Assembly: GCA_900018345.1 (NCBI GenBank)
Contig: FCNA01000028.1
Location: 62,001 to 126,000 of the forward strand
DNA length: 64,000 bases
DNA from: Clostridiales bacterium CHKCI006
GTDB taxonomy: Bacteria; Bacillota_I; Bacilli_A; Erysipelotrichales; Coprobacillaceae
Direction of reading: 5' to 3'
Positions 1,374 to 23,459 of the stretch are shown in pieces. The position numbers were made by a program, and so were the translations under genes. Under the pieces are notes generated by a model. It saw only the letters and a program-made list of their open reading frames with translations, did not search any database and was not told the origin of the DNA. Position 1 is the stretch's first letter; each line of letters starts with the position of its first letter.

Positions 1374-1682
1374 TTAAAAGAAGAGCCTAAGCGCAACAGC
1401 CAGAAAAAGCAGTCCCAGGCATATACAGCATAGATCATAGGCCCACCATAATAATGAAAAACTGAGATCTAAACTTAATAAAAGAAGCCTGAGCATATAC
1501 AATCCCAAGTTTCCTAGACTCAAGGGAAGCGGGATCCAGCGACAGCTGCAGGCATTGTATAAAAGAATCATGCTGATCAGGACCGCAAGTAAATGCAGCG
1601 GTAACCAACGAATCGAAATAAACGCCGATCCAATCAGCAGGATGCCACAGCCTAGATGTAAGCAATACATTTTTTTCATCAT
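1374..1682 (-). CDS. small hydrophobic membrane protein, unknown
   Basis: 102 residues, almost entirely Leu/Ile/Cys/Trp-rich, with three or four predicted membrane spans and a short basic N-terminus (MMKKMYCL). A ribosome site GAGGTG stands 7-8 bases before the ATG. I do not recognise a family. It sits between the HAD phosphatase gene and dnaE on the same strand, so it may be cotranscribed with either. The composition is real membrane-protein composition rather than a shadow frame, but function is unknown. Confidence 0.55.
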   Translation of the reverse strand: MMKKMYCLHLGCGILLIGSAFISIRWLPLHLLAVLISMILLYNACSCRWIPLPLSLGNLGLYMLRLLLLSLDLSFSLLWWAYDLCCICLGLLFLAVALRLFF

Positions 1683-14324: not shown

Positions 14325-15138
14325 GAAGCACGAACCTCTCAATCGCCTCGGCGACAGCACCCTGACTAAAATCTTTGGTTGTCACTACATCCGCTGCTTC
14401 CTTCACATCCGGCAAAGCATTCTGCACCGCAATGCCCAGTCCTGCCATTTTGATCATCTCCATATCATTTTCATTATCTCCAATGGCGATCGTCTTTTCT
14501 AAAGGAATGCCTAAATAACGGGCCAGCCAGGCAAGGGCCTGTCCTTTATTGACACCGGGAGCATTAAATTCCAGATAGCGCATGGACGAGTAACTGACAG
14601 CCACCCGATCACGTGTCAAAGGTTCCATTTGTCTAGCCACTTCCCTTAAATAAGGCATATCACATTTTTGAAAAATGATCTTGGCAATGCGCATGTCCTT
14701 CGTAAAAGACATATCAAAATCTTCAATGACTTTAAAATTCGCCTTTTGTTTGATCTTCCGGTCGATCTCATCCTGATTGGCATGAAACAGAAAACAGCCT
14801 TCAGGTGTAAAGATCTCCATACAGACATCCAGGTGCTTGCCAAAATCAAAGAGTTCTTTGACTAACGCATACTCCATTCCCTGAAATAAAATCTCCTGAA
14901 AGGTTCCCGTCGTGACGATCATCCCGCCATTAAAAGCGATGATATAATCCTCGTCCGATTGATCCATCTCGAGTTCATGCAGGATCTCACGGGTCATCTC
15001 ATAGCCCCGTCCTGTTGCCGGAATAAACTTTAAGCCTTTTTTTCTGGCCAGTGCGATCGCCTGACGATTGATTGGGGGAACATGATGATCGCTTGTTAAT
15101 AAGGTTTCATCCAGATCAGAAAACATCAGCTCATACAT
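14317..15138 (-). CDS. HAD-superfamily (Cof-type) phosphatase
   Basis: 273 residues from ATG 15138 (MYELMFSDLDETLLTSD), preceded by AAGGGGG; longer versions of the frame run back into ligA. Motif I is FSDLDETLL, motif II is the ATGRGYEM region, and the late IAIGDNENDMEMIKMAGLGIAV is motif IV. It is a sugar/coenzyme phosphate phosphatase of unknown substrate. It overlaps ligA by 8 bases and the carboxypeptidase gene by 8 bases, so ligA, this gene and the carboxypeptidase gene form one tight transcription unit. It is a second, distant paralogue of the HAD gene at 1.7-2.5 kb. Confidence 0.88.
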   Translation of the reverse strand: MYELMFSDLDETLLTSDHHVPPINRQAIALARKKGLKFIPATGRGYEMTREILHELEMDQSDEDYIIAFNGGMIVTTGTFQEILFQGMEYALVKELFDFGKHLDVCMEIFTPEGCFLFHANQDEIDRKIKQKANFKVIEDFDMSFTKDMRIAKIIFQKCDMPYLREVARQMEPLTRDRVAVSYSSMRYLEFNAPGVNKGQALAWLARYLGIPLEKTIAIGDNENDMEMIKMAGLGIAVQNALPDVKEAADVVTTKDFSQGAVAEAIERFVLHD

Positions 15139-17101
15139 TGGTTTCGCCCCCTTCAAGCATTCTGATAAAGTCTTCTTCACTAATGATCGGAATTTGTAAT
15201 TCTTTGGCCTTACGATTCTTTGAAGAATTTGAAGTCGTATCATTATTGATCAAATAATGGGTCTTGCTTGTCACTGAGCCCGTCACCTTACCACCTCTTT
15301 CTTCAATGACCGCTTTGAGCTCATTTCGGTTCTTATAATGATTGACACTGCCGGTAATACAGAAAGTCTTGCCTTCAAAGATGGCCTCTTCACTACTTTC
15401 CGTGTAGGGTTCAATATCCAATACCGCCAGCAGGTGCGCAATGATCTTCTGATGTTCAGGATCGGACATATAGCGTACATAAGCATCCGCCATGATTTCT
15501 CCGATCCCATCGATACTGATCAAAGAAGCCGCATTGGCACTTAGGACCTTCTCGATGTCGCCTTTAAAATGTTTGACGATCAGCTTGGCATTCGCTAAAC
15601 CAATATTCGGAATACCCAGGGCATAGATCAGACGAACTAAAGTCGTATGACGTGCCTTTTCAATCGACGCCACTAAATTCATATACGATTTTTTACCAAA
15701 ACCTTCCATATTTTCAATGCGTAAACGATAACGCTCCAAGTTGAAAAGATCCGCAAATTCCTGAATGTAACCCAGATCGATAAACTTTTCTAAGGTTGCC
15801 TCGGATAAACCATCCACATTCATCGCATCCCGGCTCACAAAATGGGTAAAGCTCTTCAAATGCTTCGCCAGGCAGTTCGGGTTCGTACAATAAAGAGTAC
15901 GGATCCCATGATCATCGACAATCTCGGTTGGTGCATGACAGACTGGGCATTCCTTTGGTATCTCTAAACGATCCGACTGATCGAGATTTTCCGCTATCTG
16001 AGGAATGATCATATTAGCCTTATACACACGCACCCGATCACCGATCCCGATATGTAGATTTTCCAAAACACTGACATTATGTAGAGAGGCACGTGAAACC
16101 GTCGTCCCTTCTAGTTCCACCGGTTCAAAGATGGCTACCGGATTGATCAGACCGGTCCGACTGGCTGACCACTCGACTTCTTTGATCCGCGTTTCCTTCG
16201 TTTCATCCTGCCATTTAAAGGCAATCGCATCGCGCGGAAACTTCGCTGTCCGCCCTAAGCTCTCGCCATAAGCAATATCCTCATACGTCAAAACTAAACC
16301 ATCACTCGGATAAGCAAAAGTAGCGATCTGATTGGCATAATTTTCAATTTCACTAATGATGGTCTGAGCATTGACTAAACGATGAGCAACGACTTCAAAG
16401 CCCTGTTCCTCCAGCCAGTCGAACTGGGCCTTGCGCGAATTGTGAAAATCCACATCATTCGCCTGGACTAAGGCAAAAGCCACAAATCGCACATGACGAT
16501 CTTTGGTGATCCGGTTATTGAGCTGGCGAACCGAACCACTGCATAGATTACGTGGATTCTTATATTTTTCGCTCTCCAGTTCAATGGAGGCATTGATCTT
16601 TTCAAAATCCGCATAAGTAATCAGTGCTTCCCCACGCACCACCAAGGTTCCCTGGTAAGGAATCTTCAGAGGGATATTGTCAAAAACACGGGCATTATTC
16701 GTAATGAGCTCGCCCACTTCCCCATTTCCGCGGGTAACCGCTTTTTCCAATGATCCATTCGTATAGGTCAATACAATGGTCAGGCCGTCTAATTTCCAGG
16801 AAAGCAATCCTTCATAGACCCCCAGCCATTCCCGTAAGGCATCCGGATCTTTGGTCTTGTCCAGGGATAACATCGGTGAAGCATGCGTTTCTTTCGGCAG
16901 TTCACTGACCACCTCATAACCAACCCGCTGGGTCGGACTATTCGATAAGACCACGCCGGTCTCTTTTTCTAAACGTTCCAATTCATCATATAAAGCATCA
17001 TATTCATAGTTGCTCATCAATTCCTGACTAGTCGAATAATAGGCTTTGGCTGCCTCATTCAACTGATCGACGAGCGTCTGCATTCTCTTTCTCTGATCCA
17101 C
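15131..17101 (-). CDS. ligA: NAD-dependent DNA ligase
   Basis: About 656 residues. I choose GTG 17101 because AAGGAG stands 9 bases before it and the protein then begins (M)DQRKRMQTLVDQLN, like other LigA N-termini; an upstream ATG would add up to 24 unlikely residues. The active-site segment LSWKLDGLTIVL carries the adenylated Lys. A four-Cys zinc finger follows (CPVCHAPTE ... CTNPNC), then HhH repeats (LIYALGIPNIGLANAK), and a C-terminal BRCT domain (FEGKTFCITGSVNHYKNR). Essential replication and repair enzyme. Confidence 0.95.
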   Translation of the reverse strand: MDQRKRMQTLVDQLNEAAKAYYSTSQELMSNYEYDALYDELERLEKETGVVLSNSPTQRVGYEVVSELPKETHASPMLSLDKTKDPDALREWLGVYEGLLSWKLDGLTIVLTYTNGSLEKAVTRGNGEVGELITNNARVFDNIPLKIPYQGTLVVRGEALITYADFEKINASIELESEKYKNPRNLCSGSVRQLNNRITKDRHVRFVAFALVQANDVDFHNSRKAQFDWLEEQGFEVVAHRLVNAQTIISEIENYANQIATFAYPSDGLVLTYEDIAYGESLGRTAKFPRDAIAFKWQDETKETRIKEVEWSASRTGLINPVAIFEPVELEGTTVSRASLHNVSVLENLHIGIGDRVRVYKANMIIPQIAENLDQSDRLEIPKECPVCHAPTEIVDDHGIRTLYCTNPNCLAKHLKSFTHFVSRDAMNVDGLSEATLEKFIDLGYIQEFADLFNLERYRLRIENMEGFGKKSYMNLVASIEKARHTTLVRLIYALGIPNIGLANAKLIVKHFKGDIEKVLSANAASLISIDGIGEIMADAYVRYMSDPEHQKIIAHLLAVLDIEPYTESSEEAIFEGKTFCITGSVNHYKNRNELKAVIEERGGKVTGSVTSKTHYLINNDTTSNSSKNRKAKELQIPIISEEDFIRMLEGGETNV

Positions 17102-17154
17102 AGTTTCCAACTCCTTCATCCTACTCATTAAACCATTAAAGCCAAAGAAAAGCA

Positions 17155-17184
17155 AGCAAAAAAGCCAGCGCAAAGTCTGGCTTT
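17155..17184 (-). terminator. intrinsic terminator before ligA
   Basis: Stem AAAGCCAG (17161-17168) / CTGGCTTT (17177-17184), followed on the minus strand by a T-rich run. It ends the transcript of the 17.2 kb orphan gene. Confidence 0.8.
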
Positions 17185-17636: not shown

Positions 17637-17750
17637 TCACCTGCTTTCAAACTGCTTCATCCATGCTTGCATGACATCTGAAATATAAACGTGTTCAAAA
17701 TCACGATCAGGGATAACAGATACGCGATTTTTACCACCATAACGAATCAT
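17637..17750 (-). pseudogene. 3' remnant of a tandem copy of the 17.2 kb gene
   Basis: A 37-codon frame ending in TGA at 17637 encodes PDRDFEHVYISDVMQAWMKQ. This lines up with PLDHDYEYVYTSDTLQDYMQE at the end of the next gene (D-F/Y-E-H/Y-VY-SD-x-x-Q-x-x-M). Upstream of it the frame soon meets a stop (TGA a few codons before the ATG at 17750), and no membrane helix or start region is present. I read it as the C-terminal scrap of a decayed paralogue. It could instead be a tiny gene, but it has no ribosome site at its ATG. Confidence 0.55.
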
Positions 17751-18061
17751 TACCACTAATCAAAAATGACGATTACTTTCAGCTCTTTACTGATCGTCAA
17801 TCAAAGCAAGCTATCCCTTAATCTAATCTTAACATTTTATACAAAAAAAACAATAGTTAGCGTTTACATTTGTGTTAAATATGTGTAAAGAAAGCAAAAG
17901 TGGATGACTTACATTACAAAAACAGGCACCTATAGATAATGTCAGTATAGCTAATATACCGACATTCCCACAGATGCCAGATAATAGAGTAACTCATTCT
18001 TAACCATATTATTAAAAGGGATTAGGTGAACAACTTTTTTAGGCTAGGTTAATCAAGATAG
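17751..18061. other. gene-free AT-rich stretch
   Basis: About 310 bases with no believable reading frame. It contains the large imperfect hairpin at 17925-17978 (listed separately) and nothing else I can name; no tRNA or IS ends were seen. Confidence 0.6.
17917..17978 (-). terminator. large imperfect hairpin with T-run, probable terminator of the accessory island
   Basis: Outer arms GGCACCT (17925-17931) and AGATGCC (17972-17978), inner 11-bp stem ATGTCAGTATA / TATACCGACAT (17939-17949, 17955-17965) around a GCTAA loop. On the minus strand it is followed by TGTTTTTG, which fits a terminator for the small membrane-protein gene upstream. Its size (54 bases) would also fit a miniature inverted-repeat element; no target duplication was seen. 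Confidence 0.5.
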
Positions 18062-18292
18062 TTAAGATTTATTAGATTTATTCTTCTTAGGTGGGAATGC
18101 AATAACAATAAATATTTGTATAAAGAAAAGAATAATTGTAATTACATTGTGGTAATCCACGATTCCATACAGAATAGAAAAAATATATATCCACCCAACC
18201 AAATTATATCTATCATCATTTTTTTTAACAGATAGATAATATGAGAACAATCCAATTAATTGCAAGATATTGAATGGTAATCCTACACCCAT
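18062..18292 (-). CDS. small membrane protein next to secreted paralogue B
   Basis: 76 residues from ATG 18292 (MGVGLPFNILQLIG). The longer frame back to 18373 only covers the homologous tail of the upstream gene in a wrong frame, so it is not used. Three hydrophobic segments (about 4-18, 31-46, 50-68) end in a basic KKNKSNKS tail. No Shine-Dalgarno site is visible: the ATG sits one base after the ancestral stop codon (18294-18296) of the secreted-protein gene, so translation was probably coupled to it. By position it is a candidate immunity or partner protein of the secreted product; this is inference. Confidence 0.55.
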   Translation of the reverse strand: MGVGLPFNILQLIGLFSYYLSVKKNDDRYNLVGWIYIFSILYGIVDYHNVITIILFFIQIFIVIAFPPKKNKSNKS

Positions 18293-18380
18293 TTTATTTA
18301 GAGGTATAATAACCCGTTCCATAATAAGAACCAGGTTCCTGAGCCATACCACTTGACGCAGTATGCCATACATCTAGACA

Positions 18381-19025
18381 TCATGTAACATACCAAGAAC
18401 CATTATAGGAAGTCCTATAATTTATTTCTAATATTCCTTCTCTTTCTCTATGAGCTTGAGCGATAATAGTAGAATCAGTACCACTAGCCGAATTAATTGC
18501 AAATAAGAAAAAACCACCAATCATTGTAGCAGCGGGCCCTCCATAAAGCGAAATTAAAGTAGCAGTTAGAGCACTTCCAATTAAATTATCGTTTAATGCG
18601 CTTTGCAACCGAGCTAACATAGTCGAATCGCTGAGTATATCATCTACAAATAATTCAACTACATCAAAATTGCCATAAGAAATTCCCAAAATAGTCAATG
18701 CACCATTATACGAACCATCAGGTCCACCACTCGTGTATCTCCAAACACCACCATTATACTGACCGTAATGTTTTGTACCCGTTAATGTACCTGAAAAATC
18801 AATTAATGGAATTATAGAAGGCTGAACGATTTCTCTTGCCTTATTGTCTAACTCCTCTTTATACGGACAATCTGAACTTAACACATAAGGATCTGTTTCT
18901 GTACCTGATCCAGCGATAATATAATTTGATATACTATCTTTTGCATCTACATGACCAACACTTAAAGTAAGAACCGTACAGCACAAACAAATTGCTAATA
19001 AACAGTTGAAGATTTTTTTCAACAT
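18381..19025 (-). CDS. secreted protein B, unknown family, shortened by an in-frame TGA
   Basis: 214 residues. Signal peptide MLKKIFNCLLAICLCC... with likely cut after VDA (28). The mature part shares with paralogue A (20.2-20.9 kb) the blocks GSGTxxDPYxL, PLIDFSGxLTG, YxQxNGGxWxYxSGGPD, a central Gly/Ala-rich hydrophobic region (about 140-175) and INYxTSxNGSWYVT. After GSWYVT this copy has TGA (18381-18383) where A has Ser. The frame beyond still encodes CLDVWHTASSGMAQEPGSYYG and stops at 18294, matching the end of A. One C-to-G change would explain it. Start ATG 19025 follows AAGGAG. The full ancestral gene would be 18294-19025. Confidence 0.7.
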   Translation of the reverse strand: MLKKIFNCLLAICLCCTVLTLSVGHVDAKDSISNYIIAGSGTETDPYVLSSDCPYKEELDNKAREIVQPSIIPLIDFSGTLTGTKHYGQYNGGVWRYTSGGPDGSYNGALTILGISYGNFDVVELFVDDILSDSTMLARLQSALNDNLIGSALTATLISLYGGPAATMIGGFFLFAINSASGTDSTIIAQAHREREGILEINYRTSYNGSWYVT

Positions 19026-19105
19026 ACAAATTACTCCTTAAACTAACATTTTACCCCCTAACCATCTTAGTTATACACTTTAAATAAGTAACTTTATATA
19101 AATAG

Positions 19106-19132
19106 ATTATAATTATTTATCGATTTTGTCAA
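19106..19132 (-). promoter_or_regulatory. probable promoter of secreted gene B
   Basis: TTGACA (19127-19132), 15 bases, TATAAT (19106-19111) on the minus strand. The boxes are perfect but the spacer is short. Confidence 0.5.
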
Positions 19133-19250
19133 AAAAATATAGAGTTATTGTTTTTTTATCACTATTTCATCGATAAGGAAGATAGAAAGAAAATGATATA
19201 AAGTGACTTTCCTATTGATAAGACATGAAAGAGATGAAAAATAGCATTAT

Positions 19251-19279
19251 AGCGGATAACTTACATAAAGTGATCCGCT
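19251..19279 (-). terminator. inverted repeat after the 121-residue membrane protein gene
   Basis: AGCGGATAACTT (19251-19262) / AAGTGATCCGCT (19268-19279) with an ACATA loop and one mismatch. The minus-strand continuation is TATAATGCTATTTTT, a loose T-run, so termination is likely but not certain. Confidence 0.45.
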
Positions 19280-19318
19280 GAAAATGAGAATGATTCAGGA
19301 AAATCCTGTATATTCTTC

Positions 19319-19684
19319 CTATCGATGCTTTATGATGGCGCAAATGAAGATGTTGACTCCAAATAAGATAATAACAATTGGAAAAATATTGGCGACATAA
19401 AATTGATAGTCCGAATTACCTAATTGTTCTGTCAGGAAAATGTAAACCTTTAATAAAGGAAATAAAGCAAGCATCAAAACCATCCATACAAGAAAACTGG
19501 CACTCATTACCTTATAATTACGTTTTTCTTCCTCTCTGGCTGCTTTTTCAATAGCTGCTAACAATGAAAACCGCTGTCCCTTTACTTTTAAGATCCTCAA
19601 ATAGATTTCAATAACGACATAAAAGAACAGTGAATAGACAATAAACAGTCCTGCAATCCCTAATAAACACATCGTTAGACTCAT
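19319..19684 (-). CDS. membrane protein of the accessory island (121 aa)
   Basis: 121 residues with three membrane spans (about 5-30, 60-85, 93-117), separated by a charged cytoplasmic-looking segment (EKAAREEEKRNYK). No family recognised. The start ATG 19684 overlaps the stop of the preceding 129-residue gene by 4 bases (ATGA), with a weak site GAAGCGGA. The two are translationally coupled and probably form one membrane unit that accompanies secreted protein A. Confidence 0.6.
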   Translation of the reverse strand: MSLTMCLLGIAGLFIVYSLFFYVVIEIYLRILKVKGQRFSLLAAIEKAAREEEKRNYKVMSASFLVWMVLMLALFPLLKVYIFLTEQLGNSDYQFYVANIFPIVIILFGVNIFICAIIKHR

Positions 19685-20070
19685 GAATGATCCGCTTCTT
19701 TCTTTTTCTTCAAATACTTCCTTCTCAGTATGATCATGTCAATGATAATACTGCCTAAAGCAATCGGAAAAACCAGGAACATTTCCGTATCTTTTATGAT
19801 ATGAAACCACCTGCCTGACGCAGGTAAATACTGACTATCCTGAAAAAAATGATAGATAAAACCATACAGAGCAGATGCCACCACCCCAATTACTTCCCAA
19901 TGCCATGACGATTGATCCCATCCATTTTTTGAGAATTTTATATTCGTATAGTTGTTTTTATACCATAGGATGGCAATAATCAATAAAACATACAAAATCG
20001 GAATACCAAAGACAAAAAACCAGAACCAAAACGGACTGAAAGCACCATAGGAAATAGGTTCGTTATTCAT
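19681..20070 (-). CDS. membrane protein of the accessory island (129 aa)
   Basis: 129 residues from ATG 20070, selected because AAAGGAGTATTTC stands directly before it; the ATG seven codons earlier lacks a site. Three hydrophobic segments (about 9-35, 50-70, 85-110), with several aromatic residues at the membrane borders, and a strongly basic C-terminus (RRKYLKKKKE). No family recognised. It lies just after the terminator that ends secreted gene A. Confidence 0.6.
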   Translation of the reverse strand: MNNEPISYGAFSPFWFWFFVFGIPILYVLLIIAILWYKNNYTNIKFSKNGWDQSSWHWEVIGVVASALYGFIYHFFQDSQYLPASGRWFHIIKDTEMFLVFPIALGSIIIDMIILRRKYLKKKKEADHS

Positions 20071-20102
20071 GAAATACTCCTTTCCACACATAATTTCCTA
20101 AA

Positions 20103-20130
20103 AAATGACCTCCTCCATAAAAGGAGGAGG
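20103..20130 (-). terminator. intrinsic terminator after secreted gene A
   Basis: Perfect stem CCTCCTCC (20109-20116) / GGAGGAGG (20123-20130) with a 6-base loop, followed on the minus strand by TCATTTTTT. The stem reads like a ribosome site in RNA but no start codon is placed to use it. Confidence 0.8.
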
Positions 20131-20157
20131 CATTAATCAACACGTAATAGATTTGAT

Positions 20158-20898
20158 TTACGAGCTCGTATATGTTCCAATTCCATAATACGAACCTGGT
20201 TCCCGAGCAGTTGGATAGCTACTCCAATAATCCAAACAGGAAGTAACATACCACGAACCATTCCATGAGGTTTGATAGTTAATTTGTAAGATGCCCCAAC
20301 CATTCCGTTTAGCTGTCTTCATCAGTTCGCGATCGCTGTTTTTAAGCCCTGCACCATAATACCACTTAAAAATCATACTAGCTGCAGTTGCAGCACTAGC
20401 TGGTACACCTATAACAAGCAAGGCCGATTTTAAGGCTGCACCAAACAAGCCTTTGGAAAGGCGATCAGCTAAATCATCCCATAAAACTGAACTGGTTGTC
20501 AATTCTGTCATATCAAATACAGTTTGTTTATCCACATAGTTAATACGATTGACACGTAAAGCATTATTAGCAGTCGTATCTGGTCCACCACTCTTATAAA
20601 TCCATTCTCCTCCATTATTTTGATTATAATGTGAAGCCCCAGTCAATACTCCAGAAAAATCAATGAGAGGCATCAAATTAGGATCTGAATACCCTCTTAC
20701 TCTCGCATCAAACATATCCTTATACTGATTATCACCTGTCAAAATATAGGGATCATCATAGGTTCCACTTCCTCCGACGACATAATTCATAATGTCATCA
20801 TCGCCATTTACATCACTAGCATTTACAGTGGTCAAACCGCTTAGTATCATACCAAAACTAAGCAAAAAGATGAAAGTTTTTCTTAAAATTTTTTTCAT
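20158..20898 (-). CDS. secreted protein A, unknown family
   Basis: 246 residues from ATG 20898, preceded by GGAGGGATAAA. Signal peptide of about 27 residues (cut after TTVNA). Mature blocks: GGSGTYDDPYIL (about 41-52), PLIDFSGVLTG, NNGGEWIYKSGGPD, a central Ala/Gly-rich hydrophobic stretch (about 145-180) that could cross a membrane, then INYQTSWNGSWYVTSC and a C-terminal EPGSYYGIGTYTSS. Paralogue B shares all these blocks. The GSGTxxDPY opening also occurs on other secreted Firmicute proteins, but the rest matches nothing I know. Secreted protein plus small membrane proteins recalls bacteriocin/immunity or toxin/immunity layouts; this is inference. Confidence 0.7.
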   Translation of the reverse strand: MKKILRKTFIFLLSFGMILSGLTTVNASDVNGDDDIMNYVVGGSGTYDDPYILTGDNQYKDMFDARVRGYSDPNLMPLIDFSGVLTGASHYNQNNGGEWIYKSGGPDTTANNALRVNRINYVDKQTVFDMTELTTSSVLWDDLADRLSKGLFGAALKSALLVIGVPASAATAASMIFKWYYGAGLKNSDRELMKTAKRNGWGILQINYQTSWNGSWYVTSCLDYWSSYPTAREPGSYYGIGTYTSS

Positions 20899-20973
20899 TT
20901 TATCCCTCCATTCCATACAGACAGATTTCAAGTCAAATGATAGAACTTACTAAGACCTATCTTTCCAAAATAT

Positions 20974-20995
20974 GAGTTAGCTTTATCACTAACTC
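20974..20995 (-). promoter_or_regulatory. leader hairpin upstream of secreted gene A
   Basis: GAGTTAG (20974-20980) / CTAACTC (20989-20995), 8-base loop, in the untranslated leader. No T-run follows, so it is a stability or regulatory element rather than a terminator. Confidence 0.45.
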
Positions 20996-20997
20996 TC

Positions 20998-21038
20998 TAT
21001 CCTATTTTTAGGATACAACCGCTTTCATAATATGTCAA
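20998..21038 (-). promoter_or_regulatory. promoter of secreted gene A with palindrome over the -10 box
   Basis: TTGACA (21033-21038), 17 bases, TATCCT (21010-21015). The -10 box is one arm of the palindrome TATCCTA-tttt-TAGGATA (20998-21015), which looks like an operator placed over the start site. Confidence 0.6.
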
Positions 21039-21231: not shown

Positions 21232-21727
21232 TCATGATATGCTTTGCACAAGACTTTCATGTTCAACCACCTGGATTTGACCCTTCTCATCCAGATAATA
21301 TCCGACCAAATGAATGACCTTGCGGCTTTCTATTAAATGAGCCAGACGAAACGCCATGCTCTCTCTGATCATCGCTTGCGCTTCTTTCAAAGTGACCCAG
21401 CGATAAGCATCATTCTCTTCGCTGTTGATGACTGAAGTCGTGAGGGCTTCACAAATAAAGTCAACCACCAGCAATGTCGAAATGGTCTTCACGCCGTTAT
21501 AACCTGGTTTTGTCTTCAAATTGGAATTCAGACTCAACAACTGGCATACTTCGATCGTGATCCCAGTCTCCTCAAAAACTTCTCGTTTTAAAGCCTAAAT
21601 CAGCGTTTCCCCTGTTCGACGATTCCACCGGGAATCTCCCAGCACTCAATGGATTGTGAATCAATAACAGACGCTGCTGATTAAAAATAAAGGCAGCGAC
21701 GCTCAATGTATGTACAGGTAATTCCAT
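21232..21727 (-). pseudogene. NUDIX hydrolase, frameshifted and interrupted
   Basis: The gene starts at ATG 21727 behind AAGGAGGAG and encodes MELPVHTLSVAAFIFNQQRLLLI. It then changes frame to give WEIPGGIVEQG, lacks one G in the GGGG run before GETLI, and meets TAG in the middle of the Nudix box. The box continues as ALKREVFEETGI and the rest of the domain is intact to the stop at 21232. So the Nudix signature GX5EX7REUXEEXGU is complete in residues but spread over frames, with at least two shifts and one nonsense codon. Function is lost unless the errors are in the assembly. Confidence 0.8.
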
Positions 21728-21791: not shown

Positions 21792-23459
21792 CTACATTTT
21801 GAAGATACAAGCCTGATATGGTTTCAAGTGAACCATCTGATGATCGATCTCTACTTCCTCATTGGATAAGAGACATTCAGGATTTCCAGACAGCGGATAG
21901 CTCATCGCTTCATTCTGGAAATTATAGACACATAAGAGATGCGTATTGTCTAATTTACGAGAAAATGCAATGACATTTTCTGCTACTTCTGGTTCAACGA
22001 CAAAGTCACCATCCACAAAGGTATCATGATAAGCCTCGCTTTGACGTAAAGCAATCATCTTGACATAGAAGTTGAAAACTGAATTTGGATCGTCCAGCTG
22101 ACTAGCGACATTGATAGTAGAAGCATGCTCGTTGACTTTCAGCCATGGTTTCACATCACTGAAGCCGGCATACTCACTATCATCAAAGCACATTGGGCTG
22201 CGCGTATTATCACGTGAACGACGATTGACAAACATCAGCGCTTCTTTTTCCGTATACCCTTCCTCAAGTGCACGCTGATACTGGTTATGCGAACTGATAT
22301 CATCGAATTCGCTAATATCTGAACGTTCATTGTTGATCATACCGATCTCTTCACCCTGATAGATGAAAGGTGTGCCTTTCAAGCTCAGTAACAGTGCGCC
22401 TAACATTTTGGCAGCTGTTGGAGTTCTTTCCTCTTCATTGCGGATCAGACGATTCATTGAACGCTGCATATCATGGTTTTCGAAGAAAGGAGCATTCCAG
22501 CCCACTTTAGCGAGTTCAACCTGGCTGGCGTATAAGGCTTCCTTGAAGGCCTTGATCGTCCAGTTCTGCAATGGGAACCACTCTTCGTTTTCAGTGACAT
22601 CCAAATTGGCATAACTGAAATCAAAGAGCATGTTGAAGCAGCCTGTGTCACCGATAAAGATATCGAGCTTATCATAAGCGACACCCACCGCTTCGGCGAC
22701 CGTAAAACACTGATACTTGTCAAATGTATTCTCTCTTAATTCTTTGAAGAAGACCTCGATTCCCGGTACGTTACGACTGAATGGGAAACAAGCAGACAGT
22801 CCATCTGCACCATCAGGCTTGCCATCCGGCCAATCCTGATTCTTCTTCATGAAGTTGATCGCATCGACGCGGAAACCGGCAATGCCTTTTTCCAGCCAGA
22901 AATTGATCATCTGATAGATATCCTGACGCATCTTTGGATTTTCCCAGTTCAGATCCGGCTGTTTTTTCGCAAAGGCATGGAAATAATACATATTGTCCTC
23001 ACCAGGAACGGGTTCCCAGACACTGCCGCCAAAGACAGAACGCCAATTCGTTGGCGCATGTCCATCCTTACCTTCCTTAAAGATATAATAATCACGATAA
23101 GGACTCTGTGGATCTTTCAGGGCTTCCTGGAACCAGGCATGCTCATCAGACGTATGGTTGATGACAAGATCCATGATCACATACATGTCACGTTTTTTGG
23201 CTTCAGCGATCAAACGATCGACATCTGCCATCGTCCCAAACTCAGGATTAATGTCATAATAATCCAAAATATCATAGCCATTATCTGCCATTGGTGAACG
23301 GTAGACCGGACATACCCAAAGCATCGTGACGCCTAACTTTTTTAAGTAGTCCAATTTTTCTATGATTCCCGGAATGTCTCCAATTCCGTCATGATTAGAA
23401 TCTTTAAAACTACGTGGATAAATCTGATAAACAATTTGTTCTTTCCATTGATGAAGCAT
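21792..23459 (-). CDS. malL: alpha-glucosidase / oligo-1,6-glucosidase (GH13)
   Basis: 555 residues, the normal length for cytoplasmic GH13 exo-glucosidases; no signal peptide. Conserved regions: YQIYPRSFKDSNHDGIGDIPGI, DLVINHTSDEH, GFRVDAINF (nucleophile Asp), FTVAEAVG (acid/base Glu), FFENHDMQRS (third Asp). It would split maltose/isomaltose-type oligosaccharides. The residue after the nucleophile is Ala rather than the Val common in oligo-1,6-glucosidases, which in the family points towards alpha-1,4 preference; this is inference. It starts 28 bases after tyrS with only a weak site (AAGGGCGG), so it may be read from the tyrS T-box transcript. The CcpA-like gene lies just beyond tyrS. Confidence 0.88.
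   Translation of the reverse strand: MLHQWKEQIVYQIYPRSFKDSNHDGIGDIPGIIEKLDYLKKLGVTMLWVCPVYRSPMADNGYDILDYYDINPEFGTMADVDRLIAEAKKRDMYVIMDLVINHTSDEHAWFQEALKDPQSPYRDYYIFKEGKDGHAPTNWRSVFGGSVWEPVPGEDNMYYFHAFAKKQPDLNWENPKMRQDIYQMINFWLEKGIAGFRVDAINFMKKNQDWPDGKPDGADGLSACFPFSRNVPGIEVFFKELRENTFDKYQCFTVAEAVGVAYDKLDIFIGDTGCFNMLFDFSYANLDVTENEEWFPLQNWTIKAFKEALYASQVELAKVGWNAPFFENHDMQRSMNRLIRNEEERTPTAAKMLGALLLSLKGTPFIYQGEEIGMINNERSDISEFDDISSHNQYQRALEEGYTEKEALMFVNRRSRDNTRSPMCFDDSEYAGFSDVKPWLKVNEHASTINVASQLDDPNSVFNFYVKMIALRQSEAYHDTFVDGDFVVEPEVAENVIAFSRKLDNTHLLCVYNFQNEAMSYPLSGNPECLLSNEEVEIDHQMVHLKPYQACIFKM

Follow-up and report, generated by a model that had tools for sequence, protein, structure and literature searches.

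A family of secreted proteins encoded beside small membrane proteins in an AT-rich patch of Clostridiales bacterium CHKCI006

The AT-rich patch and its five genes

The genome of Clostridiales bacterium CHKCI006 (G000; 3.33 Mb in 164 contigs), a gut-type member of the Erysipelotrichales, carries, within a stretch of 64,000 nucleotides on contig FCNA01000028.1 (G000:C100:62001-126000; this whole stretch is called the window), an AT-rich patch with five open reading frames (ORFs). All five lie on the minus strand, at the positions given in an earlier note on this DNA. They encode (i) a secreted protein, A, with two small membrane proteins, P1 and P2; and (ii) a broken paralogue of A, termed B, with a third small membrane protein, P3 (Table 1). 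A and B belong to a family that is real, rare and undescribed, that has a supported link to small membrane proteins, and for which no true relative was found outside the Erysipelotrichales. Its function may be antibacterial, with the membrane proteins serving as immunity proteins.

Protein A is composed of a signal peptide, a GSGTxxDPY segment, a predicted beta-hairpin, a Gly/Ala-rich centre predicted to be helical, a second predicted beta-hairpin (NGSWYVT) and a C-terminal EPGSYYGxGTY block. Alignment with B gives 42% identity over query positions 15-256 (E 3e-54), and the GSGTxxDPY, LIDFSG, SGGPD and NGSWYVT blocks are common to both, which bears out the paralogy and the common blocks described earlier. 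The description of the pair as two secreted paralogues is correct as to paralogy and signal peptides, but only A is an intact gene. The frame of B is open for 28 codons beyond its in-frame TGA and reaches the C-terminal block of the family (EPGSYYGTGYYTSK). Because this tail matches the family, a recent break or a sequencing error is a simpler explanation than alternative decoding of TGA. Judged from its reading frame, B is a truncated copy and not a complete gene.

The membrane genes are closely coupled to the secreted ones and to each other. As the earlier note had it, A is followed by two coupled three-span proteins, since the stop of P1 and the start of P2 overlap in ATGA (19681-19684). 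P3 does adjoin B as claimed, yet its partner was the full-length gene: the P3 ATG (at 18292) begins 1 nucleotide after the stop of the longer B frame (18294-18296), a spacing which argues that P3 was coupled to full-length B. A longer ORF (18062-18373) overlaps the B tail in another frame.

Several possible expression signals are found near A. A promoter-like site lies upstream, although such sites are no commoner in this region than in shuffled sequence, and an 8-pair hairpin is predicted in the presumed 5' leader. Terminator-like sites, on the other hand, number 8 against 2.1 in shuffles, and the strongest of them separates A from P1. If this hairpin (20131-20108) acts as an attenuator, it would make the mRNA and protein of A exceed those of P1 and P2. 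An excess of bacteriocin over immunity product is usual for such gene pairs.

The patch has a GC content of 0.340 against a window mean of 0.432 (standard deviation 0.025), which places it among the 5 lowest of 606 windows of the same size and confirms that it is AT-richer than its surroundings. It is flanked by the genes of an NAD-dependent DNA ligase (15131-17173) and an alpha-glucosidase/phosphotrehalase-type enzyme (21792-23459). Decayed genes had been proposed at both edges. The right edge does carry one, a frameshifted gene which we take to be Nudix-type from a Nudix box recognised by eye; the left edge has just a short open stretch in which no gene was recognised. No clear insertion footprint was detected around the patch, as a direct-repeat search gave the A/B paralogy and short matches only, and an Rfam search gave no match. 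Elsewhere in the window (1374-1682), a four-span protein of 102 residues with no Pfam match is encoded directly 3' of a HAD hydrolase gene.

Table 1. Features of the patch and its right edge (window positions)
Feature	Position	Strand	Basis or remark
AT-rich patch	17637..21038	.	3.4 kb, GC 0.340
A, intact secreted protein, 246 residues	20158..20898	-	ORF list, alignment, model
Promoter-like site of A (TTGACA-17-TATCCT)	21010..21038	-	consensus match only
8-pair hairpin (GAGTTAG...CTAACTC) in presumed 5' leader of A	20974..20995	-	predicted
Intrinsic-terminator-like hairpin between A and P1	20108..20131	-	9 pairs, 6 GC, then T-run
P1, 129 residues, three predicted spans, basic C-terminal tail	19681..20070	-	own Shine-Dalgarno-like site
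P2, 121 residues, three predicted spans	19319..19684	-	start overlaps P1 stop
B, paralogue of A, truncated by in-frame TGA	18381..19025	-	alignment and frame reading
Rest of B frame 3' of TGA, ending in family C-terminal block and TAA	18294..18380	-	frame reading
P3, hydrophobic, 76 residues, 2-3 predicted spans, basic tail	18062..18292	-	starts 1 nucleotide after full B frame
Decayed gene, presumably Nudix-type, at right edge of patch	21232..21727	-	frameshift splits Nudix box

The family and its membrane neighbours

Of 316 genomes of the order, whole-genome searches detected the family in 12. Samples drawn from the class (395 genomes) and from the phylum (392 genomes) added nothing outside the window's own family. 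A scan of 84,980 species with a two-motif pattern, which divergent members escape and which missed the fused members described below, returned five true relatives, all of them Erysipelotrichales (Ca. Stoquefichus, Solobacterium and uncultured rumen Erysipelotrichaceae), together with one short archaeal match to the N-terminal motif. The conserved core reads GGxWxYxSG ... Y ... NGSWY ... EPxxYYGxGTY. The N-terminal GSGTxxDPY segment is not specific to the family, since by itself it is also found in open frames of great length (1634 and 1560 residues).

The earlier note recognised no family for any of the five proteins, and this holds in every library tried. Searches of all five and their homologues against Pfam, NCBIfam, PHROGs and PADLOC profiles gave sub-threshold matches only, the PDB searched by sequence gave nothing credible, and neither tblastn against phages and plasmids nor a search of viral contigs found a relative. 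Solved folds gave no Foldseek match at E ≤ 0.001 for the two structure models, with VIA Z at most 4.5, an absence that is uninformative given the low confidence of the models that were compared.

The source genome has a third, divergent paralogue (G000:C42:13865-14365), in which the N-terminal segment is missing and the centre contains two membrane-span-like stretches. Two to three genes 3' of it (L037:5019-6220) lie a secreted or lipoprotein-like protein of 143 residues and then two weakly related three-span proteins of about 120 and 114 residues, with an ABC-2-like fragment further on; this gene set is possibly a second system of the same layout. Other members have decayed. In G006 the signal peptide and the domain are in different frames (L030:7541-7900), and the G170 frame is broken by stops and a shift (L036:7500-8000). 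At one locus, an AgrB-like gene (E 4e-20; L034:2591-2977) on the strand opposite to a nearby A-like gene hints at quorum-sensing genes in the vicinity.

The proposed pairing with membrane proteins was examined by asking whether the gene directly downstream encodes at most 145 residues with at least 2 predicted spans. Of the eight secreted members, four show this layout (A, B, G030 and G159), compared with 3 of the 138 other genes in the same sequences (Fisher 1.3e-4), a small sample in which the cases are not fully independent, as A and B adjoin in one genome. In G159 the gene order is like that of the window, a secreted gene followed by two small three-span genes, and in G030 the secreted gene and a three-span gene overlap by ATGA. 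The G030 unit (L028:1093-7284) is located on an element with a tyrosine integrase, a Mob_Pre relaxase and an AAA ATPase. The pairing is therefore enriched and, as described below, even fused, whereas half of the secreted homologues have no small multi-span gene directly downstream. Homologues of A and B do occur beside membrane proteins, and no match to an enzyme or adhesin family appeared; the opposite outcome of either check would have spoken against the interpretation in the earlier note.

The membrane proteins themselves are orphans. P1, P2 and P3 have no relatives above chance level in 98 related genomes, and the partners of A and B have no detectable similarity to partners at other loci. 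No homology was detected between membrane partners from different loci, apart from that of a 4-span protein of G006 with domains of the fused proteins.

Gene fusion and the hydrophobic centre

In G006 the gene of this 4-span protein precedes the secreted gene, and its product shares homology with the membrane domain that forms the N-terminus of the fused proteins in G016 and G025 (phmmer 9e-12). All fused forms belong to one genus. The A-like domain of G006 is placed in the tree as the sister of the fused clade (98/97). The homology and the tree position together indicate that neighbouring genes became one gene. The fused genes of G016, G025 and G030 lie in the same orientation before genes for a WYL regulator, a response regulator, a SapS-like kinase, an ABC ATPase and an FtsX-type permease; the conserved order (L026:1960-8587, L027:6163-13532 and L029:1-7111) is the fused gene, an uncharacterised protein of 203 residues, and then the WYL regulator onward. 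In G016 the fused gene is present in two tandem copies. An ABC ATPase near the fused genes has a match to L_ocin_972_ABC that falls below the cut-off. Basic residues after the fourth span of the fused proteins predict a cytoplasmic side for the A-like domain.

Fused and secreted forms differ in the centre of the domain, which is mostly hydrophobic in the secreted forms and hydrophilic in the four fused proteins. The fraction of Gly plus Ala is 0.13-0.26 in the former versus 0.03-0.07 in the latter, a contrast that the p of 0.0014 overstates, as the fused proteins form one clade and hence represent one evolutionary event. Compared with composition shuffles, the uncharged run in the centre is longer than expected in A (20 residues, p 0.04), B (37, p 0.005) and G141 (49, p 0.004). 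The Gly/Ala-rich hydrophobic stretch noticed earlier in both paralogues accordingly stands, although that of A is short. Glycine zippers are confined to G151, with two overlapping motifs, and G141, with one. Two low-confidence AlphaFold2 models, built on only seven sequences, both place five or six helices between a first and a second beta-hairpin.

Possible function and competing explanations

The sequence alone is compatible with an effector and immunity system as well as with a surface protein and its partner, the two options that had been raised for this locus. The explanation favoured here, with a probability of about 0.45, is that A is a Sec-secreted, membrane-active antibacterial protein and that the co-transcribed three-span proteins provide immunity. 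The mature protein, of ~23 kDa, would leave by Sec, with two beta-hairpins framing the Gly/Ala-rich hydrophobic helical segment, and this segment would probably insert into or permeabilise the cytoplasmic membrane of bacterial competitors. The task of P1 and P2 (for A) and of P3 (for B) would be to block this insertion from their place in the producer's own membrane. Read-through of the terminator between A and P1 may yield much toxin mRNA and little immunity mRNA. B would be a second such unit, of which the secreted gene is broken. In one genus, the domain became joined to its 4-span partner and no longer has a signal peptide or a hydrophobic centre, and the gene would have become fixed beside a two-component/ABC module; the fused form is plausibly a non-toxic protective derivative. 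The sequence itself shows the family, the signal peptides, the adjacency and overlap of the genes, the fusion and the missing hydrophobic centre of the fused clade, whereas toxicity, membrane target, immunity, terminator read-through and the membrane side of the fused domain are inferred.

Several observations favour this explanation: the downstream enrichment, the coupling by ATGA or 1 nucleotide, the layout in G159, the fusion, and the retention of the hydrophobic centre in the secreted forms only. The orphan status of the membrane partners fits fast-changing immunity genes. The patchy distribution, the mobilisable element with its integrase and Mob_Pre relaxase, and the frequent decay (in B, G006 and G170) fit an interference gene.

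Other observations weigh against it. The strict glycine zipper, (G/A/S)xxxGxxxG or GxxxGxxx(G/S/T), is absent from the centres of A and B. The AlphaFold2 models are poor, with predicted local distance difference test (pLDDT) scores of 53 and 58 and predicted template modelling (pTM) scores of 0.52 and 0.54. The libraries searched contain no homologue that is a known toxin or immunity protein, and no dedicated exporter is present, though a Sec signal needs none. The downstream layout is missing in G149, G151 and G141; what follows instead is a 294-residue three-span protein, a contig end (with a PnuC-like transporter as the upstream neighbour) and a one-span DUF2500-like protein, respectively. 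Finally, the stable synteny of the fused form in three genomes fits a housekeeping role equally well.

The last point leads to the chief rival, a non-toxic envelope complex whose outer part would be the secreted domain, with the 3-4-span proteins as its anchors or as partners in signalling, for instance in sensing or resisting antimicrobial peptides. We regard it as possible but on the unlikely side. It is consistent with the presence of both parts in one gene and with the constant location of the fused genes, which in three genomes are followed by a WYL regulator, a two-component system and an ABC transporter, and the beta-hairpin motifs with invariant G, W and Y residues suggest binding. However, the fused domain is predicted to be cytoplasmic while A is secreted, so that a single simple complex does not account for the two. 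Nor do the partners of A, B, G030 and G159 show a detectable relationship to the 4-span domain, which would be odd for a fixed complex, and frequent decay and patchy occurrence are likewise unexpected.

Alternatively, the family could consist of accessory surface proteins with the membrane genes as chance neighbours, the unrelated cargo of AT-rich accessory patches. Four of eight secreted members do without the layout and such patches hold many short orphan genes, yet the enrichment (p 1.3e-4, in a small sample), the coupling by ATGA or 1 nucleotide in three cases and the gene fusion make chance improbable. It is similarly improbable that the small membrane proteins are helpers in export, maturation or release (holin-like or processing factors) of a secreted protein of other function, as co-directional coupling and small polytopic partners would allow, since the ordinary signal peptide of A needs no dedicated exporter, the partners are mutually unrelated and some members have none.

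Known systems offer parallels for an antibacterial A. Secreted proteins with protective membrane proteins include EsxX of Staphylococcus aureus, with the polytopic pair ExiCD (PMC12744356), and TspA/TsaI (PMC7456083). The likeness lies in a hydrophobic helical part of the secreted protein, in one or two adjoining polytopic proteins that protect from outside action, and in patchy, polymorphic loci. In contrast, an LXG domain is present in EsxX, and TspA as well as EsxX is exported by the type VII system, whereas A has a Sec signal peptide at its start and no Pfam match to LXG or another type VII targeting domain. ExiC and ExiD have six spans and DUF5079/DUF5080 domains; P1 and P2 are predicted to have three spans and fall into no family. 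In the Cdz system of Caulobacter, CdzC/D are accompanied by the three-span CdzI (PMC5380434). Here, secreted proteins with hydrophobic segments rich in small residues are joined by an orphan three-span immunity protein. The putative immunity proteins P1 and P2 are likewise predicted to span the membrane three times and lack relatives. A and B differ from CdzC/D, which measure 84-86 residues, carry glycine zippers and leave by a type I exporter. Sequence similarity to Cdz was not seen, no direct search having been made, and type I secretion genes corresponding to cdzAB (ABC/HlyD) are not next to A or B among the window ORFs. We propose that A works like EsxX/ExiCD or CdzC/D-CdzI, as a member of neither.

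The GGxWxY-like block of the family is, in our view, loosely reminiscent of lactococcin 972. No profile match of A or B to that family at E ≤ 10 was obtained in Pfam and NCBIfam, which presumably both contain a lactococcin 972 model. Lactococcin 972 is a class IId, signal-peptide bacteriocin of Gram-positives which targets lipid II (PMC8538875). It is about a third of the size of A, and the companion ABC transporter and large membrane protein typical of it are not next to A or B in the window. Immunity of the AucIA/AurI type is given by a small cationic three-span protein adjoining the structural gene (PMC8538875), but the partner bacteriocin is a short leaderless peptide, and no sequence relation was detected.

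A bolder version of the favoured explanation would see here a new bacteriocin family, restricted to Erysipelotrichales, whose members are Sec-secreted, ~23 kDa in size and membrane-active and are paired with interchangeable three-span immunity proteins. The fused form would then be a toxin turned protective gene, without the membrane-active centre, fixed at the inner face of the membrane and next to a two-component/ABC resistance module. In all its parts this version is rather unlikely. If the antibacterial explanation is true, an undescribed protein family would be added to the weapons among gut Erysipelotrichales, a group in which few such systems have been studied. The system is small, at two or three genes, and its fused form would offer a natural experiment on the question of which region does the harm and of how a toxin domain can become a fixed protective gene.

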